Below are positions 8,879 to 43,933 of a DNA stretch of 44,829 nucleotides, piece after piece. The DNA is from a virus. A model generated the notes under the pieces. The model saw only the letters and a program-made list of their open reading frames with translations. It did no database searches and was not told the origin of the DNA. Each line of letters starts with the position of its first letter. Position 1 is the first letter of the stretch. A program made the translations under genes and the position numbers. The DNA is taken from IMG/VR virus record IMGVR_UViG_3300042898_002588, positions 1-44,829 of that record. One strand, 5' to 3'.

Positions 8879-9327
8879 TTATTATTTCTCCTTTCTCTAA
8901 GTTCATGCGTAATGGACAACAACACCCAAAGAACTATCCATATTGGAAAGAAGTTTTAGCTCACATTGATGAGCCGGTTATTCAAGTCGGAGTTAACGGT
9001 GAAACACAAATTGTCGATGATTTCAGAAAGAATTTGTCGTTGACTGAATTGGCTGAGCTAGTAAACGAATGTAAGACATGGATGAGTTGTGATAGTTTCT
9101 TGCAACATTTTTGCTGGGACCTAAACAAGCCTGGAGTTGTTGTTTTTGGTCAGTCTGATCCAAACATCTTTGGTCACCCTGAAAACACTAATCTACTGAA
9201 GGATCGAAAATATCTCAGAGAAAAGCAATTTTGGATTTGGGAACAAGCAGAGTTCATTGAAGAAGCATTTGTTAGTCCTGACGTTGTGGTCGATGCATTG
9301 AAGAAATTTGGTGTGATAACTAAATAA
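8875..9327 (+). CDS. GT9-like (heptosyltransferase C-terminal half-like) protein
   Basis: This 150-residue protein starts inside an ATGA overlap. LTELAELVNECKTWMSCDSF followed by HFCWDLNKPGVVVFGQSDP is the pattern seen in the donor-binding half of GT9 LPS heptosyltransferases: helix, short D/S segment, then KPGVVLFG-type strand. It is about half the length of a complete GT9 enzyme, and the missing half resembles the tail of the preceding protein. It may therefore be a split or remodelled glycosyltransferase. It could instead be a stand-alone sugar-nucleotide binding protein. Confidence 0.6.
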   Translation: MIIISPFSKFMRNGQQHPKNYPYWKEVLAHIDEPVIQVGVNGETQIVDDFRKNLSLTELAELVNECKTWMSCDSFLQHFCWDLNKPGVVVFGQSDPNIFGHPENTNLLKDRKYLREKQFWIWEQAEFIEEAFVSPDVVVDALKKFGVITK

Positions 9328-9773
9328 TGGAAAACTTATTTCAAAATTCTTATGATACTATATTCAAACAATGGTATCGTATGAGAACAGCTTTGGAAGA
9401 AAAAGACATTCAAACGCAATGTGTAGAAGTTGATAAGTGGTGGCAGACTGCGCCTTTAGTAAATCATTATCTGCACCCTGATTTGGTAGAAGAATGGCCC
9501 AACCCATGGGAACTGATATCAGATAATCACTATTGCCACATCGCTCGTGGATTGGGTATGTTTTATACACTGTATCTATTGGGTGTACGGGAGCTTGATT
9601 TTGTCCAAGCAAAAGACTATAATAGTGAAGATGTGACACTTATACTAGTGGATCACGCAAAATATATACTTAATTACTGGCCTAACACGGTAGTAAATAA
9701 CAATCTACAAGAATTTAAAGTTGTCAAAAAAATTGACACCTTGCCAATAATTAAAAAAATAGGGTTAAAATGA
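9327..9773 (+). CDS. Conserved phage-type protein of unknown function
   Basis: 148 residues, soluble, no signal peptide or membrane segment. It is rich in Trp, Tyr and His, with a conspicuous VNHYLHPDLVEEWPNPWELI stretch (residues 47-66) that I associate with uncharacterised proteins of T4-like phages. Its ATG overlaps the stop of the GT9-like gene by one base, and its TGA overlaps the nrdA start (ATGA), so it is translationally coupled to both. Function is not recognised. Confidence 0.6.
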   Translation: MENLFQNSYDTIFKQWYRMRTALEEKDIQTQCVEVDKWWQTAPLVNHYLHPDLVEEWPNPWELISDNHYCHIARGLGMFYTLYLLGVRELDFVQAKDYNSEDVTLILVDHAKYILNYWPNTVVNNNLQEFKVVKKIDTLPIIKKIGLK

Positions 9774-12082
9774 AGATATATGTAACAAAACGTTCTGGTG
9801 AAAAAGAAATACTTACGATTGAAAAATGGCAAGCGCAAATCGCAAAAATATGTACAGGGATAGCTGATGTAAGTCAATCAATGATTGAAATCAAAGCTCA
9901 ACCGCACTTTTACGATGGCATCACTACGCAAGAAATTGATGAAATCACATTGAGGGCCATAGTAGATTTGATCGATGTAGAATCAAATCCTGACTTAGGT
10001 CACACTAATTATCAATACGTGGCTGGCAAACAGCGCCTTAGCATGTTGCGCAAAGATGTATACGGTGACTATGAGCCTCCTCATCTGTGCGAAATAGTAA
10101 AGAAAAATGTCGCCACTGGTCTTTATACCAAAGAGTTGTTAGAATGGTATACAGAAGAAGACTGGAACAAGATGAATGATGTTCTTGACCATTCTAAGGA
10201 CGAACAATACTCTTATGCCGCCATTGAGCAATTGATTGAAAAATATCTAGTAAAGAACCGTAGTACAAAGCAAACATATGAAACACCTCAAGTTCGTTAC
10301 ATGGTTGCGGCAGCAACTGTCTTCCATAAAGAAGAACCAAATTCAGCCCGTATGCGCTACATTAAAGAGTATTACAATGCTGCCAGTGACGGCCTATTTA
10401 CCCTGGCGACACCTGTGCTTGCTGGCCTCGGAACACCGACTAAGCAGTTCTCAAGTTGCGTGCTTATTCGCAGCGATGATGACTTAGACAGTATATTCGC
10501 TAGCGGAGAAATGATGGCAAAGTATGCCAGCAAACGTGCAGGCATTGGCTTAGAGATTGGAAGACTACGCCCATTGGGCTCCCCAATTCGTGGTGGCGAA
10601 ATCATGCACACTGGCATGGTTCCTTTCTTGAAAAAATGGTTCGGTGATTTGCGTTCATGTAGTCAAGGAGGCATTCGCAATGCTAGTGCAACTGTGTTTT
10701 ATCCCATCTGGCATCATCAATTCGATGACCTCATTGTTCTCAAAAACAATCAGGGAACCGATGAAACCCGTGTCCGATTCATGGACTATGGGGTGGTGCT
10801 TAGTGCTTTTTTCTGGCGTAGATTTAGAAACAAAGAAAACATCACGTTCTTTGACCCTAACGAAGTGCCGGATCTATACGAAGCCTTCTACTCTAACACC
10901 AAATTATTTGAAGAACTGTATCTCAAGTATGAGAAACGCAAAGACTTACGTAAAAAATCTATGTCTGCGGAAGAAGTCTTTAAAGGCGGAATCTTAAAAG
11001 AACGCACTGATACAGGTCGTATCTATCTAGTGTTCATTGATAACGTAATGAATCAAGGTCCTTTTGACCCTGAATATCATACAATTTACCAGAGTAACCT
11101 TTGCTGTGAAATTCTACTCCCTACTAAATCTTTTAAACGTCTTGATGACGATACTGGTCGTATTGCCCTATGCACATTGGGTAGCATCAACTGGGGCGCT
11201 TTCCGCAATCCAGAAGACATGCGCAGGGCTTGTCGTATTCTTCATCGCAGCCTCAACAATATACTTGATTACCAGGACTTTTTGAGTATTCAATCTAAGT
11301 TAAGTAATGACGAGATTCGCCCATTGGGTATCGGCATAACAAACTTAGCGTACTGGCATGCTAAACGTAGTCTCAAATATGGTGAGAAAGATTCATTACA
11401 AGAAGTTAAAACTTGGATGGAACATCAAGCATACTATCTAACTGAATCTAGTGTTGAACTTGCCCAAGAACGAGGTCGTTGCGTTGACAGTGACAAAACA
11501 TTATACGGTCAAGGCATCTTCCCTTGGGAACGCAGAGCAAATGGTGTTAACGAATTAGCAGACTTTAAGCCTGAATTGAATTGGGAAGGCCTAAGGGCAA
11601 TGATGCGTTCATGCGGAGTCCGTAATGCTACTCAAATGGCGGTAGCTCCTGTAGAATCGTCAAGTGTTGTAATCAACTCTACAAATGGCATTGAAATGCC
11701 AATGAGTTTGATTTCAGTTAAAGAAAGCAAAGCAGGATCATTCGTTCAAGTTGTTCCTGAATATCATAAGTTGAAGAACAAATATCAGTTGATGTGGGAA
11801 CAGAAAGATTGTGAGGCATACTTGAAGACCAGTGCGGTCATTCAAGCGTATGTTGACCAGTCAATCTCTACTAACACATTCTACAATCCTGCGCACTTTG
11901 CCGACAGAAAAGTACCTACTACATTGATTGCTAAGAACTTAATGCAATCTCACATGTGGGGAATCAAAACATTCTATTACTCACTGATTAACAAAGCAGG
12001 TAGTAAGGCAGAAGAAACAACGAGCCCGTTAGAAGTTATAGACTTTGATGATGTCGAAGACTGTGAGAGTTGCAAGTTATGA
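9770..12082 (+). CDS. nrdA: Ribonucleoside-diphosphate reductase, class Ia alpha subunit
   Basis: This 770-residue protein is full length. It reduces ribonucleoside diphosphates to deoxynucleotides for phage DNA synthesis, together with NrdB (12839) and the glutaredoxin (13953). Active-site cysteines are visible: C230 in FSSCVLI, C445 in NLCCEI, the radical-bearing thiol C468 in ALCTLGSINWG, and the C-terminal shuttle pair CESC (C765, C768). PVESSSVVINSTNGIEMP is the substrate-binding region. An N-terminal ATP-cone-like segment (KRSGEKEILTIEKW) is present, so allosteric control by dATP/ATP is possible. It is coupled to the upstream unknown and to the SGNH-like gene by ATGA overlaps. Confidence 0.97.
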   Translation: MKIYVTKRSGEKEILTIEKWQAQIAKICTGIADVSQSMIEIKAQPHFYDGITTQEIDEITLRAIVDLIDVESNPDLGHTNYQYVAGKQRLSMLRKDVYGDYEPPHLCEIVKKNVATGLYTKELLEWYTEEDWNKMNDVLDHSKDEQYSYAAIEQLIEKYLVKNRSTKQTYETPQVRYMVAAATVFHKEEPNSARMRYIKEYYNAASDGLFTLATPVLAGLGTPTKQFSSCVLIRSDDDLDSIFASGEMMAKYASKRAGIGLEIGRLRPLGSPIRGGEIMHTGMVPFLKKWFGDLRSCSQGGIRNASATVFYPIWHHQFDDLIVLKNNQGTDETRVRFMDYGVVLSAFFWRRFRNKENITFFDPNEVPDLYEAFYSNTKLFEELYLKYEKRKDLRKKSMSAEEVFKGGILKERTDTGRIYLVFIDNVMNQGPFDPEYHTIYQSNLCCEILLPTKSFKRLDDDTGRIALCTLGSINWGAFRNPEDMRRACRILHRSLNNILDYQDFLSIQSKLSNDEIRPLGIGITNLAYWHAKRSLKYGEKDSLQEVKTWMEHQAYYLTESSVELAQERGRCVDSDKTLYGQGIFPWERRANGVNELADFKPELNWEGLRAMMRSCGVRNATQMAVAPVESSSVVINSTNGIEMPMSLISVKESKAGSFVQVVPEYHKLKNKYQLMWEQKDCEAYLKTSAVIQAYVDQSISTNTFYNPAHFADRKVPTTLIAKNLMQSHMWGIKTFYYSLINKAGSKAEETTSPLEVIDFDDVEDCESCKL

Positions 12083-12846
12083 AGATAGGTATATATGGTG
12101 ATAGTTACACCATCCCGCACGGAGATTTTAATGTTCCTACAAACTGGTACAACCGATTACTATGGTTGATTAAAAATGATATGGGATATAACGAAGCTAC
12201 TCTTACTCATTATGGTTTAGGAGGATCATCACTGTATTACTCATATAAAAAGTTCATTGAAACCTCACATCTTAACGATTTAAATATTTTTCTAACATCT
12301 AGTATCGATAGATTCCCTACATGTCTACCGCTTTCTATTCATGGTGGAAGAACTTGGTCCTTTACTTGTGAATCACATGTACATTCTTTCAAAGATACAT
12401 GGAAAACTGAATTATCAGAAAATGATAACTCTCGCCTAGATGATCTTGCAGCCTGGTTTAGGGTGGCAGATGGTCAATACAATATCGACATGGCTGAATT
12501 AATGTTAGACAAAATGGAATCGATGAATACTGATAATATTTTCTATCCATGTTTTTCTGACTCATTCAGTCATTCTAGATATAAAAAACATAATCTAGAC
12601 AAAACATTGAATCATATGCATTCAATGTATATACGACAGCTTGATTTACTTGATATCAATCCGGATAACTTTAATGCAATGGAGACAGATAAACTATGCG
12701 GGCATTTAGTTCCCGAGTTTAACTTGTTCTTTGCTAACATGATGTTCAAAAGGATCAAGACAGGCAAGTGGGACAACACCGGTTTCTTTGATGTACAAAT
12801 TAAAGAACCTAGAAAACTATATTACAATAACTACAATCATGAGTAA
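12079..12846 (+). CDS. SGNH/GDSL-hydrolase-like protein between nrdA and nrdB
   Basis: This 255-residue protein begins IGIYGDSYTIPHG, with the GDS motif at residues 7-9, as in block I of SGNH hydrolases (nucleophile Ser9). GLGGSSLYYS may supply the block II Gly. I cannot see a convincing C-terminal DxxH pair; CGHLVPEFN (around residue 215) is the best candidate for the catalytic His. The family removes acyl or acetyl groups from lipids and glycans, but activity here is uncertain. The start is the ATG in the ATGA overlap with nrdA; an upstream TTG at 12070 is unlikely. Its presence inside the nrd operon looks like an insertion of an unrelated gene. Confidence 0.65.
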   Translation: MKIGIYGDSYTIPHGDFNVPTNWYNRLLWLIKNDMGYNEATLTHYGLGGSSLYYSYKKFIETSHLNDLNIFLTSSIDRFPTCLPLSIHGGRTWSFTCESHVHSFKDTWKTELSENDNSRLDDLAAWFRVADGQYNIDMAELMLDKMESMNTDNIFYPCFSDSFSHSRYKKHNLDKTLNHMHSMYIRQLDLLDINPDNFNAMETDKLCGHLVPEFNLFFANMMFKRIKTGKWDNTGFFDVQIKEPRKLYYNNYNHE

Positions 12847-18848: not shown

Positions 18849-19946
18849 ATGAGTTATCTATTTACAAGTGAAAGTGTGAGCGAAGGGCATCCGGACAAAG
18901 TAGCAGATGCTATTAGTGATGCAGTTTTAGATTTGATTATGGCACAGCAAAATTCCGCATTGCGGTGTGCGTGTGAGACACTGGTCACTACTAATCAAGT
19001 TGTTGTTGCCGGAGAATACAAAGGGACACTGCATGAACTAGAAGTTGACAATGCAATCCGTCGTGTTGTAAAATTGATCGGTTACGAACAAGAAGGTTTC
19101 GATTGGCGCAAGCTAAAGGTCACTAATCTATTGCATGGTCAAAGTGCTGATATTGCATTAGGTACAGATAACTTCGGCGCAGGTGATCAAGGTTTAATGT
19201 TTGGTTATGCATGTAACGAAACAGAAAATCACATGCCCAGTGCAATATATTGGTCACATCGTATTGTTGAAGAACTAACTCGTGTGCGCAAGCAAGGATC
19301 AACTGTACTAGGACCTGATGCAAAGAGTCAGGTAACTTTTGAATACAATGACAATGGCACGCCAAAGCGTATTGCTAAAGTGGTGTGTTCAACACAACAC
19401 GATGCAAGTGCAGATATTGAGTTTGTAAGAGAGTTTGTTAAACATGTTATTATTGATATCCTTCCCAAACAGTATATAGATGCTAATACCGAGTTTTATA
19501 TTAATCCTACTGGTCGTTTCGTTATTGGTGGTCCTGATGGCGACACTGGTCTCACTGGAAGAAAAATTATTGTGGACACCTACGGTGGTTATAGTCCTCA
19601 TGGTGGTGGCGCTTTCAGTGGTAAAGACCCTACTAAAGTAGATCGTAGTGCGGCATACTTAACTAGATGGATTGCTAAAAATATCGTAGCTAGTGGCAAG
19701 GCAGATTGGGCAACAGTACAAATCAGTTATGCGATTGGTTTAGCAGATCCAATGAGTTTTTATATTGAAACAGCAGACGCACAACAAGGTCGTGATCTTA
19801 CAAAATGGGTTCAGGAAAACGTTGACCTAACACCTAAGGGTATCATTGATAGGTTTGATCTATTCAGACCAATCTACGGAAAAACAACAAACTATGGTCA
19901 TTTTGGTAAACCCGATATGCCGTGGGAAAAAGTAAATCTATTCTAA
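18849..19946 (+). CDS. metK: S-adenosylmethionine synthetase
   Basis: 365 residues, near the usual length (about 380), so probably active. It makes SAM from methionine and ATP. Motifs seen: SVSEGHPDKVADAISDAVLD at the N-terminus (ATP and metal site), GAGDQGLMFGYA, and the loop GGAFSGKDPTKVDRSAAY. A phage-borne MetK could feed the several SAM-dependent methyltransferases and the radical SAM enzyme in this window, or compensate for consumed host SAM. A start site with AAGGAAA upstream and a late-type octamer supports separate transcription. Confidence 0.97.
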   Translation: MSYLFTSESVSEGHPDKVADAISDAVLDLIMAQQNSALRCACETLVTTNQVVVAGEYKGTLHELEVDNAIRRVVKLIGYEQEGFDWRKLKVTNLLHGQSADIALGTDNFGAGDQGLMFGYACNETENHMPSAIYWSHRIVEELTRVRKQGSTVLGPDAKSQVTFEYNDNGTPKRIAKVVCSTQHDASADIEFVREFVKHVIIDILPKQYIDANTEFYINPTGRFVIGGPDGDTGLTGRKIIVDTYGGYSPHGGGAFSGKDPTKVDRSAAYLTRWIAKNIVASGKADWATVQISYAIGLADPMSFYIETADAQQGRDLTKWVQENVDLTPKGIIDRFDLFRPIYGKTTNYGHFGKPDMPWEKVNLF

Positions 19947-23276: not shown

Positions 23277-24040
23277 AAACAGTTATCACTCATTTTTACA
23301 ACGAAGAACACCTTTTGCCATGGTGGCTAGAACATCATAAAAAGATATTTGATTTTGGGGTTCTTGTTGATTACGGTAGCACTGATAGATCAGTAGAGAT
23401 ATGTAAAGAAATATGCCCACATTGGCAGATAATGCCATCTTACAACACACATTTTGATGCAATATCATGTGACCAAGAAGTAATGTTCTACGAAAGACAA
23501 TTACAAGGTTGGAGAATTGCATTAACGACTGCTGAATTCTTAGTAGGAAATACCAATAGTCTGATGAATCAACAGACTGATAGACAACAACATATCATAC
23601 CGGGCATACGATTTACTAAATGGGATCCGTGCGGAACACTAGATAGAACTAAACCATTATGGGAACAAGTACATACCGGTATATCTTACTATGATAACCC
23701 AATAGCACATCAAGGTAGAAGTCTCCATAACTACAACGATATCATATATGATACAGGTAGACACTATTGGCCACTTACAACAGAAGATGCAATGATATTC
23801 CACTATGCAAATGCAATAGTAGGAAAAGAAATGGTACAGCGTAGACTACAAATACAGTACAAAGTCAGTCCTGCTGATATAGAAAAGGGAATAGGAAATC
23901 ATCATTATATTGACAAAAATGGTCTGTCCTTCAATGAACTATACAAGATGCATACTGAATTCATTGCAGATGGTGAAACAGATTGTTCCGTTTTCATAGA
24001 CAGGATATTCAAAAAATGTGATACTAGCATCATGCGTTAG
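23273..24040 (+). CDS. Glycosyltransferase (GT2/GT92-like)
   Basis: 255 residues. THFYNEEHLLPWWLEHHKKI followed by VDYGSTDRSVEIC is typical of the GT2-like family with a W-x2-HH segment after the NEE motif. VGNTNSLMN around residue 90 stands where the metal-binding DxD region would be. It likely completes the sugar module of 21188-23276. It ends with TAG, one of only two TAG stops in the window, and that TAG lies inside the acceptor stem of the tRNA beginning at 24034. Confidence 0.75.
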   Translation: MKTVITHFYNEEHLLPWWLEHHKKIFDFGVLVDYGSTDRSVEICKEICPHWQIMPSYNTHFDAISCDQEVMFYERQLQGWRIALTTAEFLVGNTNSLMNQQTDRQQHIIPGIRFTKWDPCGTLDRTKPLWEQVHTGISYYDNPIAHQGRSLHNYNDIIYDTGRHYWPLTTEDAMIFHYANAIVGKEMVQRRLQIQYKVSPADIEKGIGNHHYIDKNGLSFNELYKMHTEFIADGETDCSVFIDRIFKKCDTSIMR

Positions 24041-24109
24041 TAGCTAAATGGTTATAGCAGGAGCCTCTAAAACTCTGACGTACGGGTTCGATTCCCGTCT
24101 AACGCACCA
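24034..24109 (+). tRNA. tRNA with anticodon CUA (amber suppressor type)
   Basis: A 76-nt cloverleaf with encoded CCA. Acceptor GCGTTAG/CTAACGC (7 bp), D-stem GCTA/TAGC, T-stem ACGGG/CCCGT with TTCGATT loop, discriminator A. The anticodon stem is GGAGC/ACTCT with one C-A mismatch and a G-U pair. The loop CTCTAAA places U33 at 24066 and the anticodon CTA at 24067-24069, which reads UAG. Other registers break the stem or put C at position 33. Its first seven bases overlap the last seven of the upstream glycosyltransferase gene, including that gene's TAG stop. Charging amino acid unknown. Confidence 0.82.
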
Positions 24110-29982: not shown

Positions 29983-30544
29983 TTCCAATAATCATATATC
30001 TATCATAACCCCAGTCCTCATAGGTTATCGGTAGAGTTTCTGAAAATTTTATCTCACTTAGTGGGTATTTTGAAAGAAATTCATCGATACTATGACTGGG
30101 GTTTTTTATTAGCCATGGCTCAGTTGTATCTGTGACGTTACTAGACTGTATGCATACCATAGTGCCAGGGCTTATATTGTCGAACCAAGCTGATGATCCC
30201 ATGTGTTCACAGCTACAGTTAATAACTACATCAAACCCCCTAGTGTCAACTATATTAGCATCGTCACATGTAGTACGTTGTATGCCCTCAACAAACCAAT
30301 AGTTACAAATTTTATTTGCGATATCAACATTTGTAGAGTCTAAATCTATCCCTCTAATGTGTGAATACTTGTTAGGCTGTCTAGTTAGCATCATGAACCC
30401 TAATACATTTATCCAGCTTCCTAATATTGCCACAGTTATATTATCTTTTGTTAACGGTTCTAGTTTCTCACATAGCCACAATTTACTTTTTATTTGCCCG
30501 TGACTGAACCCATCTAAGTCAGTATTTGTCATTGCTGTATACAT
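29975..30544 (-). CDS. SAM-dependent methyltransferase-like protein
   Basis: 189 residues from the ATG at 30544; a further in-frame ATG at 30532 is possible. ITVAILGSWINVLGF is a degenerate glycine-rich motif I, IRGIDLDSTNVDIANKI the acidic loop that would hold the SAM ribose, and FDVVINCSCEHMG motif IV. It is the last gene of the leftward unit that starts at 33055 and overlaps the PP-loop gene upstream. Ends with TAG, one of two such stops in the window. Substrate unknown; it may tailor the product of the cluster. Confidence 0.7.
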   Translation of the reverse strand: MYTAMTNTDLDGFSHGQIKSKLWLCEKLEPLTKDNITVAILGSWINVLGFMMLTRQPNKYSHIRGIDLDSTNVDIANKICNYWFVEGIQRTTCDDANIVDTRGFDVVINCSCEHMGSSAWFDNISPGTMVCIQSSNVTDTTEPWLIKNPSHSIDEFLSKYPLSEIKFSETLPITYEDWGYDRYMIIGIK

Positions 30545-31412
30545 CACTTTTCAATATAGTTTTTATTTTCTCGCCCCAAAAAATAGTAGAAGGAGTTATA
30601 CCTAACTTCTTTAATAATTCTAGTTTGTACTTGTTCTTTTTAAACAGCTTACTAGTAAGTCCTTCCCACCCTGAGTTACGAAGTCTTGGCATAAACACTC
30701 CAACTCCCAACGAACTATACAAGTTAGACTTGAATCGACCAACTTCTAATTTGTCGCTGTAACATCGTATGTGTTTTTCAATCATGTGCATGTTTAATTC
30801 CAGACTATGATTTAGAAAACTACTGATTCCATTGATGTTCTTCTCATGCATAAATCGACTATAAGAACTGTATTCAAATCTATGAGGACTTATTACTGCT
30901 TTATGTGGCCATGGCCATGAGTAATCGCCAGCAAATATCGGCACATTATCACATTGTTCTACCATCCAAAAGTGAGTTGCTACATGCGGCTCGATTATTG
31001 AATATGGTACTACATAATTTAGGTATCGGTCACTTTCAAAGAAATCAAGTACATCTAATGTGATTATATTCTGTTTGATATCATTCTCACGACAGTACAA
31101 TTCACTGTAGTATAAATCCTGTGTATTAACGATGCACCCGTCAATCAATAACTTCATAGTAATGACATTGTGAGGAATACCTAAGGCTATTACGGTTCTA
31201 AGTAACAATTCACTATCTTGCCCGCCACTTAATAATACATCTATTTTGCCCTTGTTACTGAGTACATCATATGCCATGTCAAGATATGATTTAGCACTGT
31301 CAGTTGGCACATCCTTCAGTGTAATATGATGCACTTTTTTACCAGTTACTGAGTCAATAATTAACTTGTTTTCTTTGTAATCGTCAACTCCGTCTGACCA
31401 AATTAAATCCAT
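30519..31412 (-). CDS. PP-loop ATPase, asparagine-synthase-like (first of three)
   Basis: 297 residues. LLSGGQDSELLL at residues 61-71 is the PP-loop (SGGxDS) that adenylates a carboxyl or carbonyl in the N-type ATP pyrophosphatase superfamily. No glutaminase domain is present, so it would need ammonia or an amine donor. The segments after the loop (NTQDLYYSELYC, DVLDFFESDRY) align without gaps to the protein at 36024 (NQHDIVYAYEFC, FYDFVESGR), so the two are paralogues. Neighbours are a GNAT and two 2OG-type oxygenases. Amide or lactam formation on the cluster product is an attractive but untested idea. Confidence 0.8.
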   Translation of the reverse strand: MDLIWSDGVDDYKENKLIIDSVTGKKVHHITLKDVPTDSAKSYLDMAYDVLSNKGKIDVLLSGGQDSELLLRTVIALGIPHNVITMKLLIDGCIVNTQDLYYSELYCRENDIKQNIITLDVLDFFESDRYLNYVVPYSIIEPHVATHFWMVEQCDNVPIFAGDYSWPWPHKAVISPHRFEYSSYSRFMHEKNINGISSFLNHSLELNMHMIEKHIRCYSDKLEVGRFKSNLYSSLGVGVFMPRLRNSGWEGLTSKLFKKNKYKLELLKKLGITPSTIFWGEKIKTILKSDVYSNDKY

Positions 31413-33090: not shown

Positions 33091-33843
33091 ATGAACTTAT
33101 TTTCATCATCACCTAATTCATTAAGAATAATACAATTATTGTCATTGGTAATATTGTTGACAAGCCCTTTCGTTGCGGCGTTTAGTTGGCAGTATGTTCT
33201 ATTAGCAATAATCATGTTTTACTCTTATAGTATTTTGGGTATAAGTATGATGTTGCATCGGTATTATACTCATAAGAGTTTTAAGTTAGGCAATTTAGCT
33301 AAATGGTTTTACACTGTATTTGCTGTATTAGCCGGACGAGGAAGTCCCTTGGGTTGGGTATATATTCATAGAATACATCACGCTACATCAGATACAGAAA
33401 AAGATCCTCATAGTCCTTACAATAAAGACTTTAACTTTGTAGGTTTCAAACCCACAAACACTAAATTTAACCCTTTTATAGTTAAAGAATTATTGACACC
33501 CGTACATTTAAAAATAGACAAGTACTATCTATTGTTTATACTAGCATTTTTATTGTTATTGAGTATCGTAAACTATAACCTAGTTATCTACATGTGGGCT
33601 ATACCTGTATTCATAGTAAGTATAACTCAGACGATGTTCAACTATTTTTGTCACACCAATGGGTACAGAAACTTTGCAACAAATGATTACAGTACAAACA
33701 ACAAATACATGTGGCCCTTTATTTTAGGTGATGCCTGGCACAACAATCATCATGCACACGCTGAAAAGGTATGCACTAAGGTCAGATCATACGAACTAGA
33801 CCCATTAGCACTAGTAATCTCATTATTAAGAACCGACAAATGA
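33091..33843 (+). CDS. Membrane fatty-acid desaturase (first of three)
   Basis: 250 residues with about four membrane helices. All three histidine boxes of the acyl-CoA/acyl-lipid desaturase family are present: HRYYTH (56-61), HRIHH (93-97) and HNNHH (217-221). These hold the diiron site that introduces a double bond into a fatty acyl chain. Electrons must come from a ferredoxin or similar donor not seen here. It heads a rightward unit with a GNAT, a second desaturase and a Rieske oxygenase. Substrate could be membrane lipid or acyl-ACP; the phage ACP makes the latter worth testing. Confidence 0.92.
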   Translation: MNLFSSSPNSLRIIQLLSLVILLTSPFVAAFSWQYVLLAIIMFYSYSILGISMMLHRYYTHKSFKLGNLAKWFYTVFAVLAGRGSPLGWVYIHRIHHATSDTEKDPHSPYNKDFNFVGFKPTNTKFNPFIVKELLTPVHLKIDKYYLLFILAFLLLLSIVNYNLVIYMWAIPVFIVSITQTMFNYFCHTNGYRNFATNDYSTNNKYMWPFILGDAWHNNHHAHAEKVCTKVRSYELDPLALVISLLRTDK

Positions 33844-34412
33844 AAGTAGAACGACTATTAGGAGAAGAGCATTTCAAGGAATGCTTGGAGATATCTAGAC
33901 TACGATCTAGGGTAAGCGGCACTAAGCCATTACCCGAAGAAGTGTTGATCGAACTCTATAAGAAATACTTTGAAGAAAACGAGAACTACTATGCATTTGG
34001 TTGCATCGAAGATGGAAAGATCATTAGCTGGATAGGTATCGTATTGATGGAGAACAAGGCCCGTGGTAGATTCTGGGTCATAACTACACTATACACTACT
34101 AGATTCACTACGTACTTCTCCTTCAACCAGGAAGAAATCGGCTTATTGATTAAAGAAGCATTTCATTTGGCAGAGTCAAAGAAATACTACGAGTATTATT
34201 ATTCAGTCAGTGAACGCATCGCCACCGTCTATGAAAGTCAGTACAGAAAGAACAAGTATGTACAGACTGGCCGTTATGATCTGGTAGAATTAGACCGGGT
34301 CCCCGCTAATACACAGCCTACAACTGATTTATATTGGAAGCTCATGGGGCAAGAATTGAAGCCTGATGCCATAATTATCAAGAAAAGGGTATTGCGAGAA
34401 TCCTTCAGATAA
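33840..34412 (+). CDS. GNAT-like protein between two desaturases
   Basis: 190 residues, ATGA-coupled to the first desaturase. YYAFGCIEDGKIISWIGIVL and FWVITTLYTTRF suggest the central GNAT strands, followed by a helix (LLIKEAFHLAESKKYYEYYY). The acetyl-CoA loop is not recognisable. The length suits a LuxI/FeeM-sized acyltransferase. The call rests on fold-like pattern and context. It carries a late-type octamer within its last codons that serves the next gene. Confidence 0.5.
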   Translation: MKVERLLGEEHFKECLEISRLRSRVSGTKPLPEEVLIELYKKYFEENENYYAFGCIEDGKIISWIGIVLMENKARGRFWVITTLYTTRFTTYFSFNQEEIGLLIKEAFHLAESKKYYEYYYSVSERIATVYESQYRKNKYVQTGRYDLVELDRVPANTQPTTDLYWKLMGQELKPDAIIIKKRVLRESFR

Positions 34413-34420: not shown

Positions 34421-35194
34421 ATGACACATATACTAGCATCTAGCACACGCGGCGCACAAATATTCATGGTTGTGTCTCTGATCGGAACACTACTTGGATT
34501 GTTTACTTACGGGTTGACAATTAATAGTCTGTTATTGATATTGCTTGGATATTTCATATATGGTTGTTTGGGAATTGTCGTCACGTATCATAGACGATTG
34601 ACTCATAATAGCTATACAACATATCCATTATTAACCAAAGTATTGTCAGTGTTAGGATGCTTTGCAGGTACGGGCAGTCCGCTAGCCTGGGTTGCGATTC
34701 ATATTAATCATCACTTAAAGAGCGACAAGCCAACTGATCCACACAGCCCACTGTACAAGGGTCTAAAAATATTCGCATTAGACTATGTGAACGAAGTTGA
34801 TACAGATACTAAATGGCGTATGCGCGGGTTAGTTACAGACAAATTCCAACAGTTCCTGCATCGATATTATTTCGCTATAATTGCGTTGTATAGTCTTGTA
34901 TTGTTTATGATCGGCGGCCTCTACTTAATGATATTCTTGCACTGGGCACCGGCTATGGTTACGGGTGTTATGAGTAATATCGTCAACTACGTAGGACACA
35001 AGCCTAGTTGGTATGGTGGATATCGTAGTTACAATCTAAATGACCAGTCTGCGAACAATTGGTTATGGGCTATTCCTAGTTGGGGCGAAGCATGGCACAA
35101 CAATCATCACAGATTCCCCAAAGACTATACGTTTCGCAAGAAATGGTATGAATTCGATATTTCCGGATTAATCATTTCTGTCATTAAAACTTAA
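34421..35194 (+). CDS. Membrane fatty-acid desaturase (second of three)
   Basis: 257 residues. Histidine boxes: HRRLTH (57-62), HINHH (94-98) and HNNHH (226-230), with hydrophobic segments on both sides. SPLAWVAIH before the second box matches SPLGWVYIH in the desaturase at 33091, so they are paralogues, but they differ enough to expect different positional or chain specificity. No ribosome binding site is obvious, in line with a late-type octamer placed directly before the ATG. Confidence 0.92.
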   Translation: MTHILASSTRGAQIFMVVSLIGTLLGLFTYGLTINSLLLILLGYFIYGCLGIVVTYHRRLTHNSYTTYPLLTKVLSVLGCFAGTGSPLAWVAIHINHHLKSDKPTDPHSPLYKGLKIFALDYVNEVDTDTKWRMRGLVTDKFQQFLHRYYFAIIALYSLVLFMIGGLYLMIFLHWAPAMVTGVMSNIVNYVGHKPSWYGGYRSYNLNDQSANNWLWAIPSWGEAWHNNHHRFPKDYTFRKKWYEFDISGLIISVIKT

Positions 35195-35233: not shown

Positions 35234-36043
35234 ATGTTTCTTGCACACAAATCCTCTATTTCTGAACTATCTTACAAGGTACTGGATCAATACCTTAGGA
35301 AAAAAGTGTTGGTTAACGACAACGGCGTTTACAAGCTTGTCAGCAATATATGTACGCATCAACAAAGCCTTATCTCATTGAAAGATGGTAAGGGTTCACG
35401 TGTCTGCCCCTATCACAATTGGTCATTTAAACTAGACGGCAGTCCACTAACCAGCGGCAGAACAGAACACTACTGCAAAAACACAGAAAATCTAAAGGCA
35501 GAATCAGTCTATGAATGGAATGGGTTGTTGTTCAGTAGCCCCGTAGACTTTGACATAGATGTTGACCTAAGTAATATGGTTCTAGTCGAGACTCGCACTG
35601 ACTATGTTAAAGCAACACCTAATAATATTATGGATTTGTTCTTGGATGTAGATCATATACAAACTGTACATGCCGGTGTCTATGATTTGATTGATATACA
35701 TGACACAGATGTAGAGTGGAAATACTATCAGAATGGTAGCATTCAGACAGTAAAAGAGGGCGCACGATGGATTGCAGTCTATCCTAATACTATGATAGAA
35801 TGGCAGAAGGGCTCGATGTTTATTACTGTAGCAACACCCTCAGATGAACATTCCAATGTCTATGTATTCAAGTATATGGATAAGAACTATGTAGATGACT
35901 GGAAGCTTAACGAATCAGTATGGGAAACGGCCTGGTCACAAGATAAGAACCAAGCAGAGTTATTAACTGAATTCTCTCAAACCAACTTAGAACAACAAAA
36001 AATTCACTTTAGAGATTTTTTAAATGCCAATGGAAATAACTAA
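35234..36043 (+). CDS. Rieske-type non-heme iron oxygenase
   Basis: 269 residues. The [2Fe-2S] Rieske site is complete: C40-x-H42 (ICTHQQ) and C58-x2-H61 (CPYHNW). The catalytic domain carries H141 and H146 in DVDHIQTVHAG, the usual D-x2-H-x4-H arrangement of the mononuclear iron. It is shorter than ring-hydroxylating alpha subunits (about 400) and closer to compact Rieske monooxygenases or desaturases. No reductase is encoded here. It should oxidise an organic substrate, perhaps the acyl product of the preceding desaturases. IscU at 20510 could help to load its cluster. Confidence 0.9.
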   Translation: MFLAHKSSISELSYKVLDQYLRKKVLVNDNGVYKLVSNICTHQQSLISLKDGKGSRVCPYHNWSFKLDGSPLTSGRTEHYCKNTENLKAESVYEWNGLLFSSPVDFDIDVDLSNMVLVETRTDYVKATPNNIMDLFLDVDHIQTVHAGVYDLIDIHDTDVEWKYYQNGSIQTVKEGARWIAVYPNTMIEWQKGSMFITVATPSDEHSNVYVFKYMDKNYVDDWKLNESVWETAWSQDKNQAELLTEFSQTNLEQQKIHFRDFLNANGNN

Positions 36044-36941
36044 GAATAATTACCTGTATGGTACAGGACACGGAGATACCTGGCACGTAAATATTGATCC
36101 TCCCACTAAGAAAGTCAAGACATACTTTGAAGAAACACTTGATGCCGTGGAATACGTGTATGCTAATAAAACAGGTAAGTTTCAAGTACTGTATAGCGGT
36201 GGGTTAGATAGTCAATACGTATGTGAAGTGTTGCTACACTTGAAGATGCCCTTTGATCCAATAATCATTGAACTCACTGACAATGACGGGAATGTGTTAA
36301 ACCAACATGACATTGTTTATGCATATGAATTTTGCAAATCTAAGAATATAGAACCTGTTATCTATAAGTTAAACTTCTATGATTTTGTTGAATCCGGGCG
36401 TAATGTAGAAATTGCTGAGTCAGTTACATGTTGTTCATTTGCTCTGCCTGCTACCATGCATGTTGCTAGTCAACTGGACGGGTTTACTCTACTAGGAAAC
36501 GACCCACCATATATGCGTTATGAAAAAGACATTGATATTTGGGTATTAGAAGAACTGGAATACATCCACAGTTTACAGAGGTATTACAAGAAGTATAATG
36601 TCAACGGTTGTCCCTTTTTACTATCTTATACGCCGGAAATGATGCTATCATTCTTGTTAGATCCTAGTATAGTTAAATTGGGCACAGGACAACTACCGGG
36701 CAAGACAGGTAGCAACTCTACAAAGTCACATGTCTTCAATAATGGCTCTAATTTTAACATGCCGGTCTATGATTTTGTAACTCAGAAACGCATAAAGTTA
36801 ACAGGCTACGAACAGATATATAGATCAGAAATTATGCAACACCCTAATATTAGGATTTTTGAAAAATTCTGGAATAAGTGGAACGGGGAATACTTAGAAC
36901 CATATAGTGATGCAGTAAAAAGACTATCAATTAACCAATGA
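36024..36941 (+). CDS. PP-loop ATPase, asparagine-synthase-like (second of three)
   Basis: 305 residues; a second in-frame ATG at 36030 is an alternative start. VLYSGGLDSQYV at residues 55-66 is the PP-loop. It is a paralogue of the protein at 30519: both follow the loop with a D-rich strand and then NQHD/NTQD and DFVES/DFFES at matching distance. Like that gene it stands beside a GNAT and a 2OG-type oxygenase. It overlaps the Rieske gene by 20 nt, so it may be translationally coupled to it. Adenylation for amide formation is the family expectation; the substrate is unknown. Confidence 0.8.
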   Translation: MPMEITKNNYLYGTGHGDTWHVNIDPPTKKVKTYFEETLDAVEYVYANKTGKFQVLYSGGLDSQYVCEVLLHLKMPFDPIIIELTDNDGNVLNQHDIVYAYEFCKSKNIEPVIYKLNFYDFVESGRNVEIAESVTCCSFALPATMHVASQLDGFTLLGNDPPYMRYEKDIDIWVLEELEYIHSLQRYYKKYNVNGCPFLLSYTPEMMLSFLLDPSIVKLGTGQLPGKTGSNSTKSHVFNNGSNFNMPVYDFVTQKRIKLTGYEQIYRSEIMQHPNIRIFEKFWNKWNGEYLEPYSDAVKRLSINQ

Positions 36942-39331: not shown

Positions 39332-40228
39332 ATGAAAAAAATATTTACAATCTTGTTGATGATGTGCATTGCGTCTTCAGCTTTTGCACAAAAAACTGTT
39401 TCAATAATCTGGCCTTTCTCTCCCGCTAGCTCACAATCAAACATGGTTCGTGCAGTGATAGAAAGTGCAAATGCTCAACAAAACAAATACCAATTTGTGT
39501 TTCAAAATAGACCTGGAGCGGGCGGCGCAATTGCAGCAAATGCCGTAAAAGAGTCGAAAGAATTAGCAATATTAGCTACTACAAGTAGTTTCTACATCAG
39601 ACCGTTATTGTATAAAGATAGTCACAGTATAGACGATTTTGATTTGGTTACTCCGTTTTGTAATGCACAGCCGCTAGCAATTTTTTCCAAGAAAATAAAC
39701 AAATTATCCGATGCTCAACATCGTGATATAACAATTGGTGTCAATCCGGGTTCTATCACTTCGTTGATAACAAGATCACTTAAACGTGAAAACCCTGAAT
39801 TTAGTATAGTCGAAGTTCCTTATAAGGGAACACCTGAAGCAACAACTGATATGCTAGGAGGACATATTGATGGTGGCGTGGATTGGATGGGCCCCAGTGT
39901 TACTGCAAGATTTACAAATGATGTTAAAGTTGTGGGTATGACAGGAACTCGCAGTGTTAACGGTCATCAAACATTTCAATCACAAAAAATTAAAGGACTA
40001 GAGAATATCACTGTAGGTCACTATTTCTTTGTTAATAAAACAATTGACAATACTACTAGGCAAGAACTGCACAAGATTTTAAGTGATGCTCTAACTGAAA
40101 AACCTAAATCAATCTGTGAAATTGACTTTGGTCAATTAGTAAAGACACCATACAACCAATTAGATTCAGTGAATCAAACAACTAAAATTAATTGGGAAAA
40201 ATTAACTGCCGGCATTCCCAAAGAATAA
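39332..40228 (+). CDS. Periplasmic tripartite tricarboxylate transporter-type solute-binding protein (TctC/Bug family)
   Basis: 298 residues, near the usual length. A clear Sec signal peptide (KKIFTILLMMCIASSAFA, cleavage likely after residue 19) targets the periplasm. NRPGAGGAIAANAV is the family hallmark after the first lobe; NPGSITSLITRSL and VPYKGTPEATTDMLGGHIDGGVDW match later conserved segments. Family members bind carboxylates such as citrate, dicarboxylates, nicotinate or aromatic acids for the TctAB membrane partners. Those partners are not encoded here, so the protein must work with a host transporter or act as a stand-alone binder. AGGAA precedes the ATG. Confidence 0.9.
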   Translation: MKKIFTILLMMCIASSAFAQKTVSIIWPFSPASSQSNMVRAVIESANAQQNKYQFVFQNRPGAGGAIAANAVKESKELAILATTSSFYIRPLLYKDSHSIDDFDLVTPFCNAQPLAIFSKKINKLSDAQHRDITIGVNPGSITSLITRSLKRENPEFSIVEVPYKGTPEATTDMLGGHIDGGVDWMGPSVTARFTNDVKVVGMTGTRSVNGHQTFQSQKIKGLENITVGHYFFVNKTIDNTTRQELHKILSDALTEKPKSICEIDFGQLVKTPYNQLDSVNQTTKINWEKLTAGIPKE

Positions 40229-40631: not shown

Positions 40632-41258
40632 TTATATATCCAATGTGCCTGTATAATCGTCGTATCCGTGTTTTCTAAGTTGTTCAACTCTGTGCTTTTG
40701 ATCTAAGACAAACAATCGCACTAATAGATTATAGGGTGCAGGGGGTCTGTATGCATCAAACAATGGTAGTCCAGAAGCCTCTCCTTTAGGAATTATCAAC
40801 TCATCGTAGCAATTATACCTATTCAATAGGGTGCTGTGTTTGCACATAATTTTATGTCGTATGTTATGTGCAGACTCTTTATTTAAAGACCAGAATTTAT
40901 AGTATCCTTTAGACTCCATCAGACTCACTATCATGTCTAGTGCAGGTGCAATAATAGGAGCAGTTTTATTGTAGTGATTGTGCTTTGCTACACTACTAAG
41001 ACCATTCCAACGCCATGCAAGTATTTGAGGAACTTCAAACGCTTGATAGGATGCTATCGGTTTATTGTCGTTATCGAACACTACTGCAACGTGCATCAGA
41101 CCTTCTATCATTTTCTGTTTGGTAGTGCTAAGGAAAGTTTCCTGCACATCTTCTGTAATTACTGTCCCTAAGGCGGTGCGGCCAACGGCATACGTGACAC
41201 GTAAGTAGTCAATTTCGTCTGGGGTGATAAATCTTGTGGTGTTCATAGTATCAAGCAT
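40632..41258 (-). CDS. GNAT-like protein downstream of acyl carrier protein
   Basis: 208 residues from the ATG at 41258 (8-nt overlap with the ACP gene); a second ATG at 41246 would avoid overlap. AVVFDNDNKPIASYQAFEVP followed by ALDMIVSLMESKGYYKFWSL resembles the core of GNAT-fold acyltransferases. It is placed next to the ACP gene, and several GNAT-fold enzymes of this length (LuxI, FeeM) take their acyl chain from acyl-ACP. That makes it the best candidate to transfer the ACP-bound chain. The fold call is tentative. Confidence 0.5.
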   Translation of the reverse strand: MLDTMNTTRFITPDEIDYLRVTYAVGRTALGTVITEDVQETFLSTTKQKMIEGLMHVAVVFDNDNKPIASYQAFEVPQILAWRWNGLSSVAKHNHYNKTAPIIAPALDMIVSLMESKGYYKFWSLNKESAHNIRHKIMCKHSTLLNRYNCYDELIIPKGEASGLPLFDAYRPPAPYNLLVRLFVLDQKHRVEQLRKHGYDDYTGTLDI

Positions 41259-41487
41259 TTAAAGAATTGAGATAGTCATATACTTTTTGCACAGTGTCTA
41301 GTTCTTCGGCGATTTCTTCTGGAACTTCAATGCCGTACTTGTCTTCTAGAATTAGTACCAGTTCAATGATATCTAAACTGTCGCCACCTAAATCAGATAT
41401 AAAAGAACTATCGGGTTTAATGTCATCTTCGCTTATTCTGTAATGTTTAGCTATAATAGCTCTTACTTTATTTTCTGCATCTTTCAT
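41251..41487 (-). CDS. acpP: Acyl carrier protein
   Basis: 78 residues, the canonical ACP length, acidic and helical. The phosphopantetheine attachment Ser37 is in DLGGDSLDIIELV, the classic DSL motif, followed by the acidic recognition helix (LVLILEDKYGIEVPEEIAEE). I start it at the ATG at 41487, inside an ATGA overlap with the desaturase gene, after AGAGAAG; an upstream start at 41523 is less likely. It should carry acyl groups as thioesters. A dedicated holo-ACP synthase lies at 43344. Adjacent genes encode a desaturase and a GNAT-like protein. Confidence 0.95.
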   Translation of the reverse strand: MKDAENKVRAIIAKHYRISEDDIKPDSSFISDLGGDSLDIIELVLILEDKYGIEVPEEIAEELDTVQKVYDYLNSLNA

Positions 41488-42287
41488 GTTGTTCTTCTCT
41501 TTTCTATTAACGGAATCAACCATTTTGCTGTATCAAATTCGCCTTTTTTATGAGCATGATTGTAATTTCTCGGATCTCCATGATGATTATTATGAAGGCC
41601 GTGCCCTAGCGTAATCCAATTGAGCCAGGGGATATTTTGACTATTGTCTTTGCCAGTATAATTTTGATAACTCCATTTGTGTTTGTAATGACCGAATGTA
41701 TTGGCTATAGACAGCAAATGAAACTCTAGAACTGTGGCAGCACTGACAATGAACACTGCAAGTCTCCAATCTATTAAGGCTAACAGCAACCAACTACCCC
41801 AATAAATTTTATAGTTATGATTATGAAAAAATTTAAGATATGGGTCTTTCATCATGTCTTTAACAACCCATATTTTGTCTTTGGCCAGGTCAATTTTGTG
41901 GTTCTGCCATAATAGATAACTCCACCAAAGACCTTTTGTGGGTGTATGCGGGTCCAATTCTGTATCGCTATGCGGATGATGGTATCCTACGTGTATGACT
42001 TTCACGTTCATTGCACTGCCAGCACCGGACATTAAACCGAAATATGCGCCTAATCTAACTATCCAGGTATATGTCTCAAAAGATTTATGACAAAAGTATC
42101 TGTGAACAAAGATGCCATATCCTATATGGCCGAATAGAAACCATGCAGGGTATATTATCATTAACCATGGCCAATTGGTAGCACCAGTGAACACAGATGC
42201 TATACCTATCAACGTCAAAATGTGTGCTGGTATGGTAACCCGTCTAATATTCACTCCTAAGCTATTCCAAAAATTTAAAATTTTCAT
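41484..42287 (-). CDS. Membrane fatty-acid desaturase (third of three)
   Basis: 267 residues with several membrane helices. Histidine boxes are HRYFCH (62-67), the variant second box H-x3-HHPH (99-106, IHVGYHHPH) and HNNHH (232-236). The second box has one extra residue compared with the usual HxxHH, so its substrate or geometry may differ. It ends in an ATGA overlap with the ACP gene, a direct hint that the substrate may be an acyl-ACP. Upstream is the radical SAM gene on the same strand. Confidence 0.9.
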   Translation of the reverse strand: MKILNFWNSLGVNIRRVTIPAHILTLIGIASVFTGATNWPWLMIIYPAWFLFGHIGYGIFVHRYFCHKSFETYTWIVRLGAYFGLMSGAGSAMNVKVIHVGYHHPHSDTELDPHTPTKGLWWSYLLWQNHKIDLAKDKIWVVKDMMKDPYLKFFHNHNYKIYWGSWLLLALIDWRLAVFIVSAATVLEFHLLSIANTFGHYKHKWSYQNYTGKDNSQNIPWLNWITLGHGLHNNHHGDPRNYNHAHKKGEFDTAKWLIPLIEKRRTT

Positions 42288-42304
42288 ATATTCACCGCGG
42301 CTGT

Positions 42305-43198
42305 TTAAAATTGATTTTCGTATTTTTTTACGTGCTCAAAAAATGGAGCAAGTTTAAAATCCTGAGTTAGCCTACCTCGTCTATTATTGCCTGGATCAGG
42401 AAAGTCACTATCTTCAGGACTCCAGTCTGTAATTTTAATCCAAGTGGTAGTGTACTTCTTATCTGGCTCTACTGGAAAGAATATCACATTCTTTTCTCGA
42501 CACCCATTGATCTCAGTCTGTGTTAACGCCCATTCCTTATCTATGCCAAGTTGATTACACACTAATGTAACCATTTCATCCCATGTCCAGTTTTGATTTT
42601 TTTCTAAACTGTAACGACCAACTTGCCCAACATTTCTAAAACGTAGAATTGCTTTGCCCTGCGATTCTTTCACTAGTTCATAAAGTCTCTTAGGGGTGTT
42701 ATCATTTACGCCTTTTTGTAAGATAACACCAATGTTAACATTCATTTTTACATTTAGACATGATTTAAGGGCTGTGACTTTTCTTTCAGCCCAAGAGCCA
42801 CCGCCATCCATAATTTTGTAAATGGAATTATCATCTGCGCCGTTCATACTAATATATATGCTACGCATGCCTGCGTCTGCTAATTCTCTAGCATAACCCG
42901 GTCTAGCTAGCATTAAGCCATTTGTCATCATAGTAGGGCGATGTCCTAAGCGTTTAATGTTGTCTACTATTTCAATTAAATCTGATCTTACTGTAGGCTC
43001 GCCGCCTATTAGTCTAATCTCAGCCTTGTTTGGCAATTGCTCCAACACTTCATATAATTTAGTTACATCTAGATCCGGCACTGTTCTTATTGGAACATAG
43101 CAATTGGCGCATTCCATATTACATTTGTGAGTAATATCAACAAAGATGCTATAGAAGTGATTGTCTTTGGGTTCTAATTCGTAGTAAGTATCTATCAT
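42305..43198 (-). CDS. Radical SAM enzyme
   Basis: 297 residues from the ATG at 43198; the longer frame upstream begins only with a TTG. The [4Fe-4S] motif C26-x3-C30-x2-C33 is in THKCNMECANC, followed by IRLIGGEPTVRSDL (GGEP motif for SAM) and SIYISMNGAD. It is MoaA/SPASM-like in the core. The C-terminal part has few cysteines, so no full auxiliary-cluster SPASM domain is visible. It performs a 5'-deoxyadenosyl radical reaction on an unknown substrate. A GATAAATA octamer on the minus strand predicts transcription starting at this ATG. MetK and IscU could supply SAM and clusters. Confidence 0.9.
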   Translation of the reverse strand: MIDTYYELEPKDNHFYSIFVDITHKCNMECANCYVPIRTVPDLDVTKLYEVLEQLPNKAEIRLIGGEPTVRSDLIEIVDNIKRLGHRPTMMTNGLMLARPGYARELADAGMRSIYISMNGADDNSIYKIMDGGGSWAERKVTALKSCLNVKMNVNIGVILQKGVNDNTPKRLYELVKESQGKAILRFRNVGQVGRYSLEKNQNWTWDEMVTLVCNQLGIDKEWALTQTEINGCREKNVIFFPVEPDKKYTTTWIKITDWSPEDSDFPDPGNNRRGRLTQDFKLAPFFEHVKKYENQF

Positions 43199-43203
43199 AC
43201 CGT

Positions 43204-43211
43204 TATTTATC
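43204..43211 (-). promoter_or_regulatory. Late-promoter octamer (GATAAATA), leftward
   Basis: With the last A at -6 the start point is 43198, the A of the radical SAM ATG, again predicting a leaderless message. Confidence 0.45.
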
Positions 43212-43256
43212 GTGGCCTTAAAAGATGATAATAATTGAATTACGGGCAAACAAGAA

Positions 43257-43285
43257 TTGACCTTGATTCTGAGATAGTCTATAAT
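43257..43285 (+). promoter_or_regulatory. Consensus sigma70 promoter for acpS
   Basis: TTGACC (43257-43262), 17-bp spacer, TATAAT (43280-43285). It lies 58 bases before the acpS ATG and should be read by the unmodified host polymerase early in infection. Confidence 0.85.
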
Positions 43286-43343
43286 TTGTGAATGTCTATA
43301 TTTTTAAAATATACGTTGTTATTAACTAGTTTAGGTAGTAATC

Positions 43344-43643
43344 ATGTTAGGTTGTGATATCGTTAAGGTTTCTAGATTCAAAAATAATTTATCTAAACTA
43401 GCCAATAAAATACTATCTGAATCTGAAATAGTTGAGTTCAACAAAGCAACAAACAAAATACAATATATTGCAGGAAGATGGGCTGCCAAAGAAGCCATCT
43501 TCAAAGCAACCGGACACCGAAGAATGACTATACTAAACAGTACTACAGGAAGCCCATATGTAGTAAACAACTCTAGTATTAAAATTAGTATTAGTCATGA
43601 AAAAGAATACGCAATCGCAGTTGCGTTACTAGTTTACCCATAA
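43344..43643 (+). CDS. acpS: Holo-acyl-carrier-protein synthase (phosphopantetheinyl transferase)
   Basis: 99 residues, shorter than bacterial AcpS (about 120-126) but with its key parts. MLGCDIVKVSRF carries the Mg-binding Asp, AGRWAAKEAIFKATG the Mg-binding Glu and catalytic Lys, and IKISISHEKEYAIAVALL is the C-terminal signature. It transfers 4'-phosphopantetheine from CoA to Ser37 of the ACP encoded at 41251. Early-type promoter upstream, whereas the radical SAM gene beside it has a late-type octamer. The mid-section loop seems shortened, so host range for ACPs may differ. Confidence 0.9.
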   Translation: MLGCDIVKVSRFKNNLSKLANKILSESEIVEFNKATNKIQYIAGRWAAKEAIFKATGHRRMTILNSTTGSPYVVNNSSIKISISHEKEYAIAVALLVYP

Positions 43644-43657
43644 GACAATAAAAAAAG

Positions 43658-43686
43658 TTGACAACAATTCAAAAGGCATATATACT
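43658..43686 (+). promoter_or_regulatory. Early promoter P1
   Basis: TTGACA (43658-43663), 17-bp spacer, TATACT (43681-43686). The transcript would start about 43693, just before a hairpin at 43695-43712. Confidence 0.85.
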
Positions 43687-43694
43687 ACACACTT

Positions 43695-43712
43695 GCATCG
43701 AGAAATCGCTGC
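43695..43712 (+). other. Leader hairpin 1 with GAAA tetraloop
   Basis: GCATCGA-GAAA-TCGCTGC: six pairs with one mismatch (T-C). It begins nine bases after the -10 box, so it would form the 5' end of the P1 transcript. Confidence 0.65.
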
Positions 43713-43745
43713 ATTGAAGTTTGGGCAAGATGATAGAAAAAGTTG

Positions 43746-43774
43746 TTGACAACTATTCCTATCTCTACTATACT
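43746..43774 (+). promoter_or_regulatory. Early promoter P2
   Basis: TTGACA (43746-43751), 17-bp spacer, TATACT (43769-43774), identical boxes to P1. Confidence 0.85.
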
Positions 43775-43782
43775 TCAGTCAT

Positions 43783-43800
43783 GAATTGAGAAATCGATTC
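43783..43800 (+). other. Leader hairpin 2 with GAAA tetraloop
   Basis: GAATTGA-GAAA-TCGATTC: seven pairs (one G-U). It has the same loop and the same nine-base offset from the -10 box as hairpin 1, but the lower stem pairs differ with pairing kept. Confidence 0.7.
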
Positions 43801-43842
43801 AGAAAAGAATTTTTGAAGTTGGGTAGATAGTTGAAAAAGGTG

Positions 43843-43871
43843 TTGACACTAATTCGATCTTCTGCTACAAT
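43843..43871 (+). promoter_or_regulatory. Early promoter P3
   Basis: TTGACA (43843-43848), 17-bp spacer, TACAAT (43866-43871). The GAAA hairpin is absent here; instead AAAGGC/GCCTTT could pair around 43890-43914. Confidence 0.8.
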
Positions 43872-43933
43872 TCATACATGAATTAACAAAAGGCACAAAA
43901 AACAGCCTTTAAAAGACGAAATTTTTTACCAGG

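Follow-up and report, generated by a model that had tools for sequence, protein, structure and literature searches.

Why would a phage carry genes both for an acyl carrier protein (ACP) and for a holo-ACP synthase (AcpS), the type of enzyme that primes it? We addressed this question in an uncultured phage represented by one IMG/VR virus record of 44.8 kb, called here the window. Both genes are present with strong family matches and lie 1.9 kb apart, as originally predicted, on opposite strands. The window also contains ribonucleotide reductase genes and tail-fibre-like genes, though repeats may have inflated some of the tail-fibre scores. On a related contig (L009), a UvsW-like helicase is encoded, with nearest proteins from jumbo phages. 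The T4-type capsid profile PF07068 gave no match, which carries no information since control genomes gave none either. Since the window phage and its relatives are known from metagenomes only, and most comparison records are fragments, absences are weak evidence.

A canonical ACP and a compact AcpS-type protein

The ACP (41251..41487, minus strand; 78 aa) matches PF00550 (E=3.5e-15) and scores 86.3 bits against TIGR00517 (acyl_carrier), above the cut-off of 70.45. The longest open reading frame spans 41251-41523 on the minus strand, but because an ATGA overlap joins the inner ATG at 41487 to the stop codon of a desaturase gene, this ATG is the likely start. The attachment serine is therefore residue 37, placed in a DSL motif as had been proposed. 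With this serine and its match to the equivalog profile, the window ACP is of the AcpP type, and it retains D36, S37, L38, D39 and E42 in an alignment (the E. coli ACP reference was entered by hand).

The AcpS gene (43344..43643, plus strand) encodes a 99-aa protein that matches PF01648 (E=1.6e-14). It scores 73.7 bits against TIGR00556, above the cut-off of 45.35, and 52.4 bits against the acpS equivalog TIGR00516, below the cut-off of 59.8. This shortfall is probably due to a missing loop; judged from its sequence, the protein is best regarded as a divergent AcpS-type phosphopantetheinyl transferase, and the shortfall as a matter of score threshold rather than a functional feature. The enzyme had been described as shortened, and it indeed lacks the GTG loop found in cellular enzymes, which accounts for its small size. 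A loss of catalytic residues, which would have told against the original prediction, is not seen: D5, R11, K22, E50, K54 and H85 are invariant across 18 aligned phage AcpS. Structure prediction gave an AlphaFold model (pLDDT 95.5, pTM 0.87) with an AcpS-like fold, matching AcpS crystal structures with a query TM of ~0.8-0.88. The predicted activity is the transfer of phosphopantetheine. Phage AcpS proteins resemble the AcpS family of holo-ACP synthases in their fold and in their D/E/K/H residues, while they differ from cellular AcpS (~119-139 aa) by their length of 97-104 aa, by the deletion of the conserved GTG loop and by forming a separate clade. This clade has a support of 91/82 in a tree that also includes 45 cellular sequences; one comparison sequence, the B. 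subtilis AcpS, was entered by hand.

An early promoter had also been proposed for acpS. A sigma-70-type promoter (43257..43285, plus strand; TTGACC-17-TATAAT) precedes the gene, with hexamers identical in three relatives, and this strong and conserved match supports, as far as sequence goes, a promoter of the early type. Over 43201-43900 of the plus strand, four sigma-70 sites with at least 11 of 12 matches were found, versus 0.04 expected in shuffles. Downstream of acpS (43650-43880, plus strand), three tandem near-consensus sigma-70 promoters are followed by a 59-aa ORF and a tRNA-Asn.

Phage AcpS accompanies an ACP

Scans of viral contigs retrieved 23 further AcpS loci belonging to about five lineages. 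An ACP is also encoded in 23 of the 24 viral AcpS records, six of these matches being below the Pfam cut-off and relying partly on position and a DSL/DSF motif; in the one exception the contig is cut off within the gene that, in relatives, comes just before the ACP slot. A second set comprised 50 viral desaturase records, of which all nine with AcpS have an ACP as compared with 20/41 without (p=0.006). Both sets therefore support the idea that the carrier is a dedicated one, served by a loading enzyme of its own. Among 50,697 named phage records, no convincing AcpS was found. The candidates there, short unannotated 'Listeria/Enterococcus/Staphylococcus phage' contigs and 'Acinetobacter phage MD-2021a' contigs, resemble host DNA and were rejected.

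Other arrangements were noted on these contigs. A divergent 99-aa AcpS between a desaturase and an ACP (L181:2091-2390) was missed by PF01648 and found with a phage AcpS profile. A conserved cassette in L006 and L019-L030 (~8900-12600) comprises an IMP dehydrogenase, AcpS, an adenylosuccinate-synthetase-like protein and a divergent ACP, and so ties purine genes to a carrier protein. Finally, an operon with overlapping frames (L016:8378-10294, also in L015, L017 and L018) encodes an ACP, a 272-aa SGNH-like protein, assigned by motif and without Pfam hit, a 180-193-aa protein and AcpS.

Does the ACP need a private AcpS?

One of two options in the original prediction was that the phage ACP is poorly served by the host AcpS. 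Helix II is the surface met by ACP partners, AcpS included (PMC3340395), and since the window ACP keeps its acidic helix-II residues as well as the rest of the D36/S37/L38/D39/E42 set, the host enzyme would probably load it. Moreover, records of 81, 115 and 193 kb, which may be incomplete, have an orthologous desaturase-ACP pair of like ACP type and no AcpS was found in them. Hence, this claim is not borne out for the window, and we consider it quite unlikely that a private enzyme is required because the ACP is a poor host substrate. Lineages C and D differ in having lost both of the acidic residues of helix II, and there a private enzyme may be needed. A different motive would be that infection outpaces the host enzyme and a compact AcpS keeps the carrier in its holo form, unmodified ACP in excess being toxic according to work in E. 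coli. The early-type acpS promoter, the lack of any AcpS without ACP in the viral records and the variety of ACP partners among phages sharing one AcpS clade all agree with this motive, but AcpS went undetected in 20/29 ACP-bearing viral desaturase records, many of them fragments. We rate it as somewhat unlikely, and it would be compatible with the pathway proposed below.

The ACP gene lies in a desaturase-GNAT unit

On the minus strand, the ACP gene is framed by two genes that overlap it. A 267-aa membrane fatty-acid desaturase (41484..42287; PF00487, 4e-13), with intact histidine boxes whose histidines are invariant in the alignment, shares 4 bp with it, and the gene for a 208-aa GNAT-fold acyltransferase (40632..41258), a conserved ACP neighbour, overlaps its end by 8 bp. 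The latter was assigned with AlphaFold and Foldseek; the model has a mean pLDDT of 57 and is good in its N-terminal half only, and the top Foldseek hits are all GNAT. With their overlapping frames, the three genes are translationally coupled and make up a single unit, upstream of which lies a radical SAM gene (42305..43249, minus strand; CxxxCxxC; PF04055, 3.8e-21). The best NCBIfam matches of the radical SAM enzyme are far under their cut-offs, and an identity as viperin was rejected (NF038283, 40.9 bits for a cut-off of 180). The coupled desaturase and GNAT plausibly offer the carrier a job. LuxI and FeeM enzymes use acyl-ACP as donor, and gene coupling suggests that the GNAT may do so too.

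Two further desaturases and a Rieske protein are encoded 5-9 kb from the coupled unit, on the plus strand. The desaturases (33091..33843, PF00487, 3.7e-16; 34421..35194, PF00487, 1.3e-17) flank a GNAT-like protein (33840..34412), recognised by homology to a lineage-B protein and aligned with the 208-aa GNAT. The Rieske-type oxygenase (35234..36043; PF00355, 6.2e-9) is followed by a PP-loop (QueC/AsnB-like) protein with an SGGLDS motif (36024..36941). The latter was identified by this motif and by lineage-B homology: its homologue matches QueC weakly, and a Pfam scan of the protein itself gave no convincing match. A second PP-loop protein of the same family (SGGQDS) is encoded at 30519..31412 on the minus strand.

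The association of desaturase and ACP extends to other phages. In the nine scan loci nearest to the window desaturase (L178-L186, 59-94% identity, three of them from near relatives of the window), an ACP adjoins the desaturase in 9/9. GNAT is present in most of them, a radical SAM gene in the window relatives, L181 and L186, and L181 has the order GNAT-FAD-AcpS-ACP, FAD being the desaturase. The constant feature is thus a neighbourhood of desaturase, ACP and GNAT, near a radical SAM gene. More broadly, among desaturases retrieved with one query alignment, an ACP lies within 6 kb in 29/78 viral loci versus 2/80 cellular ones (p=1e-8), although distant extra desaturase copies in the longer viral flanks (up to 10 kb, against 6 kb) could raise the viral number slightly. 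The difference is equally large within 2 kb (27/78 versus 2/80) and persists after clustering at 70% (viral 14/45, p=9e-6). GNAT homologues are found beside 24/29 ACP-bearing and 23/49 ACP-less viral desaturases (p=0.002), and beside none of the 80 cellular ones. PP-loop genes, considered as an ACP-specific part of the module, are not enriched (18/29 versus 31/49) and were rejected as such. Among cellular desaturases, the nearest ones are DesC/DesA-like and belong to a type generally assumed to use acyl-CoA or lipid-bound chains. Being generic, with an ACP in the flanks of only two, these relatives were rejected as a guide to function.

Richer modules occur in other lineages. In lineage B (L013, L014, L117), a ketosynthase (KAS) with Cys-His-His, seven to eight desaturases, ferritin-like proteins and an ACP are encoded, with overlapping frames from KAS to ACP and AcpS upstream, nearby. 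L225 has a KAS, a FabZ-like gene recognised by sequence motif, two ACPs, AcpS, PP-loop, GNAT and desaturase genes, and L205 an ACP, AcpS and seven desaturases. Spanin-like genes, identified by inspection, adjoin the module of L207, which supports its phage origin.

A proposed carrier-dependent acyl pathway

The analysis established what the genes encode, which active-site residues they keep, how their reading frames are coupled, and how far they are conserved and linked. On this basis, we find it moderately probable that the phage encodes a carrier-dependent pathway of acyl desaturation and transfer, in which the ACP would serve as carrier and AcpS as priming enzyme. We infer each catalytic step, the desaturation of an ACP-bound chain and the product as follows. 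With a sigma-70 promoter to itself, AcpS would be made early and would place phosphopantetheine on Ser37 of the phage ACP. An acyl chain would then be loaded, through host fatty-acid synthesis or acyl exchange; a ketosynthase and a FabZ-like protein are encoded by some other phages. The coupled membrane diiron desaturase and the two others in the window may act on the ACP-bound chain, after which the coupled GNAT would move the acyl group to an amine or hydroxyl acceptor. Further tailoring of this group may involve the PP-loop, Rieske and radical SAM enzymes. We favour this pathway because the desaturase, ACP and GNAT frames overlap, an ACP stands beside all nine nearest desaturases, the linkage is viral, GNAT is enriched, lineage B and L225 have comparable gene sets, and AcpS constantly occurs with ACP. 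Against it, no AMP-binding acyl loader (PF00501) was seen in 17 records, which are fragments, while control genomes were positive; the closest cellular desaturases are DesC/DesA-like and seldom near an ACP, AcpS is sometimes absent from the module, and the frequency of PP-loop genes is not raised where a desaturase locus has an ACP.

Cyanophage lipid desaturases are reported to modify host membrane lipids, and the window desaturases could similarly alter the host membrane, with the ACP and AcpS providing additional carrier that boosts fatty-acid synthesis by the host. The canonical AcpP type of the window ACP and the DesC/DesA-like desaturases would fit, as would acpP-fabF-fabG in roseophages (PMC8224337). 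The frame overlap and the recurrent desaturase-ACP-GNAT adjacency speak against such a role, and arrays of seven to eight desaturases seem to exceed the needs of membrane fluidity; we hold it to be unlikely. The ACP might instead be a virion or partner protein without a biosynthetic role, mass spectrometry having found ACP in Eneladusvirus phages (PMC7760394). This would leave its linkage with desaturase, GNAT, KAS and AcpS unexplained, and appears highly improbable.

The carrier-dependent pathway has partial parallels. Alkyne and polyyne clusters (jamABC; pgn, cay) contain several membrane desaturases and a dedicated ACP each (PMC8406139). The phage module likewise groups desaturase(s) and ACP in one cluster, but it is phage-borne and adds AcpS, GNAT and radical SAM. 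Strict membership in the jamABC class was rejected since no fatty acyl-AMP ligase was found in the 17 records; neither rubredoxin nor thioesterase was seen in Pfam scans of the cluster proteins. Cyanophage lipid desaturases are also phage-borne, but the window desaturase is coupled to ACP and GNAT. Phage-encoded ACPs are already known, from roseophages and Eneladusvirus, and the portions of these reports that we consulted mention neither an AcpS nor a desaturase partner (PMC8224337, PMC7760394). The literature searched contained no paper on a phage ACP plus AcpS, on a phage AcpS or on a class of carrier-dependent viral acyl biosynthetic clusters.

That phages borrow individual lipid genes is known. 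The occurrence of this gene set in many uncultured phages suggests that these use a carrier of their own to build acyl chains or to remodel them. Tentatively, and as something that we judge a little short of probable, many uncultured phages may produce, while infecting, a dedicated acyl product that is polyunsaturated or acetylenic, through clusters of an ACP, often its own AcpS, serial desaturases and GNAT, some with a ketosynthase and a FabZ-like protein. If so, the self-contained set of carrier, priming enzyme and desaturase in several lineages would mean that phages make acyl products of their own, which may serve in competition or defence or in modifying the host surface or the virion. 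The coupled gene set is small, making its expression in the laboratory easy.

Additional features of the window

An S-adenosylmethionine synthetase gene (metK; 18849..19946, plus strand), ~52% identical to an annotated metK, is a possible source of SAM. The phage also encodes a TctC-like periplasmic binding protein (39332-40228, plus strand; PF03401), the N-terminus of which is signal-like. Finally, a tRNA with a CTA anticodon (24034-24109, plus strand), called as tRNA-Pyl, is an apparent amber suppressor. The stop codons of 50 long window ORFs are TAG in 2, TAA in 30 and TGA in 18, and TAG readthrough or recoding is possible in this phage.
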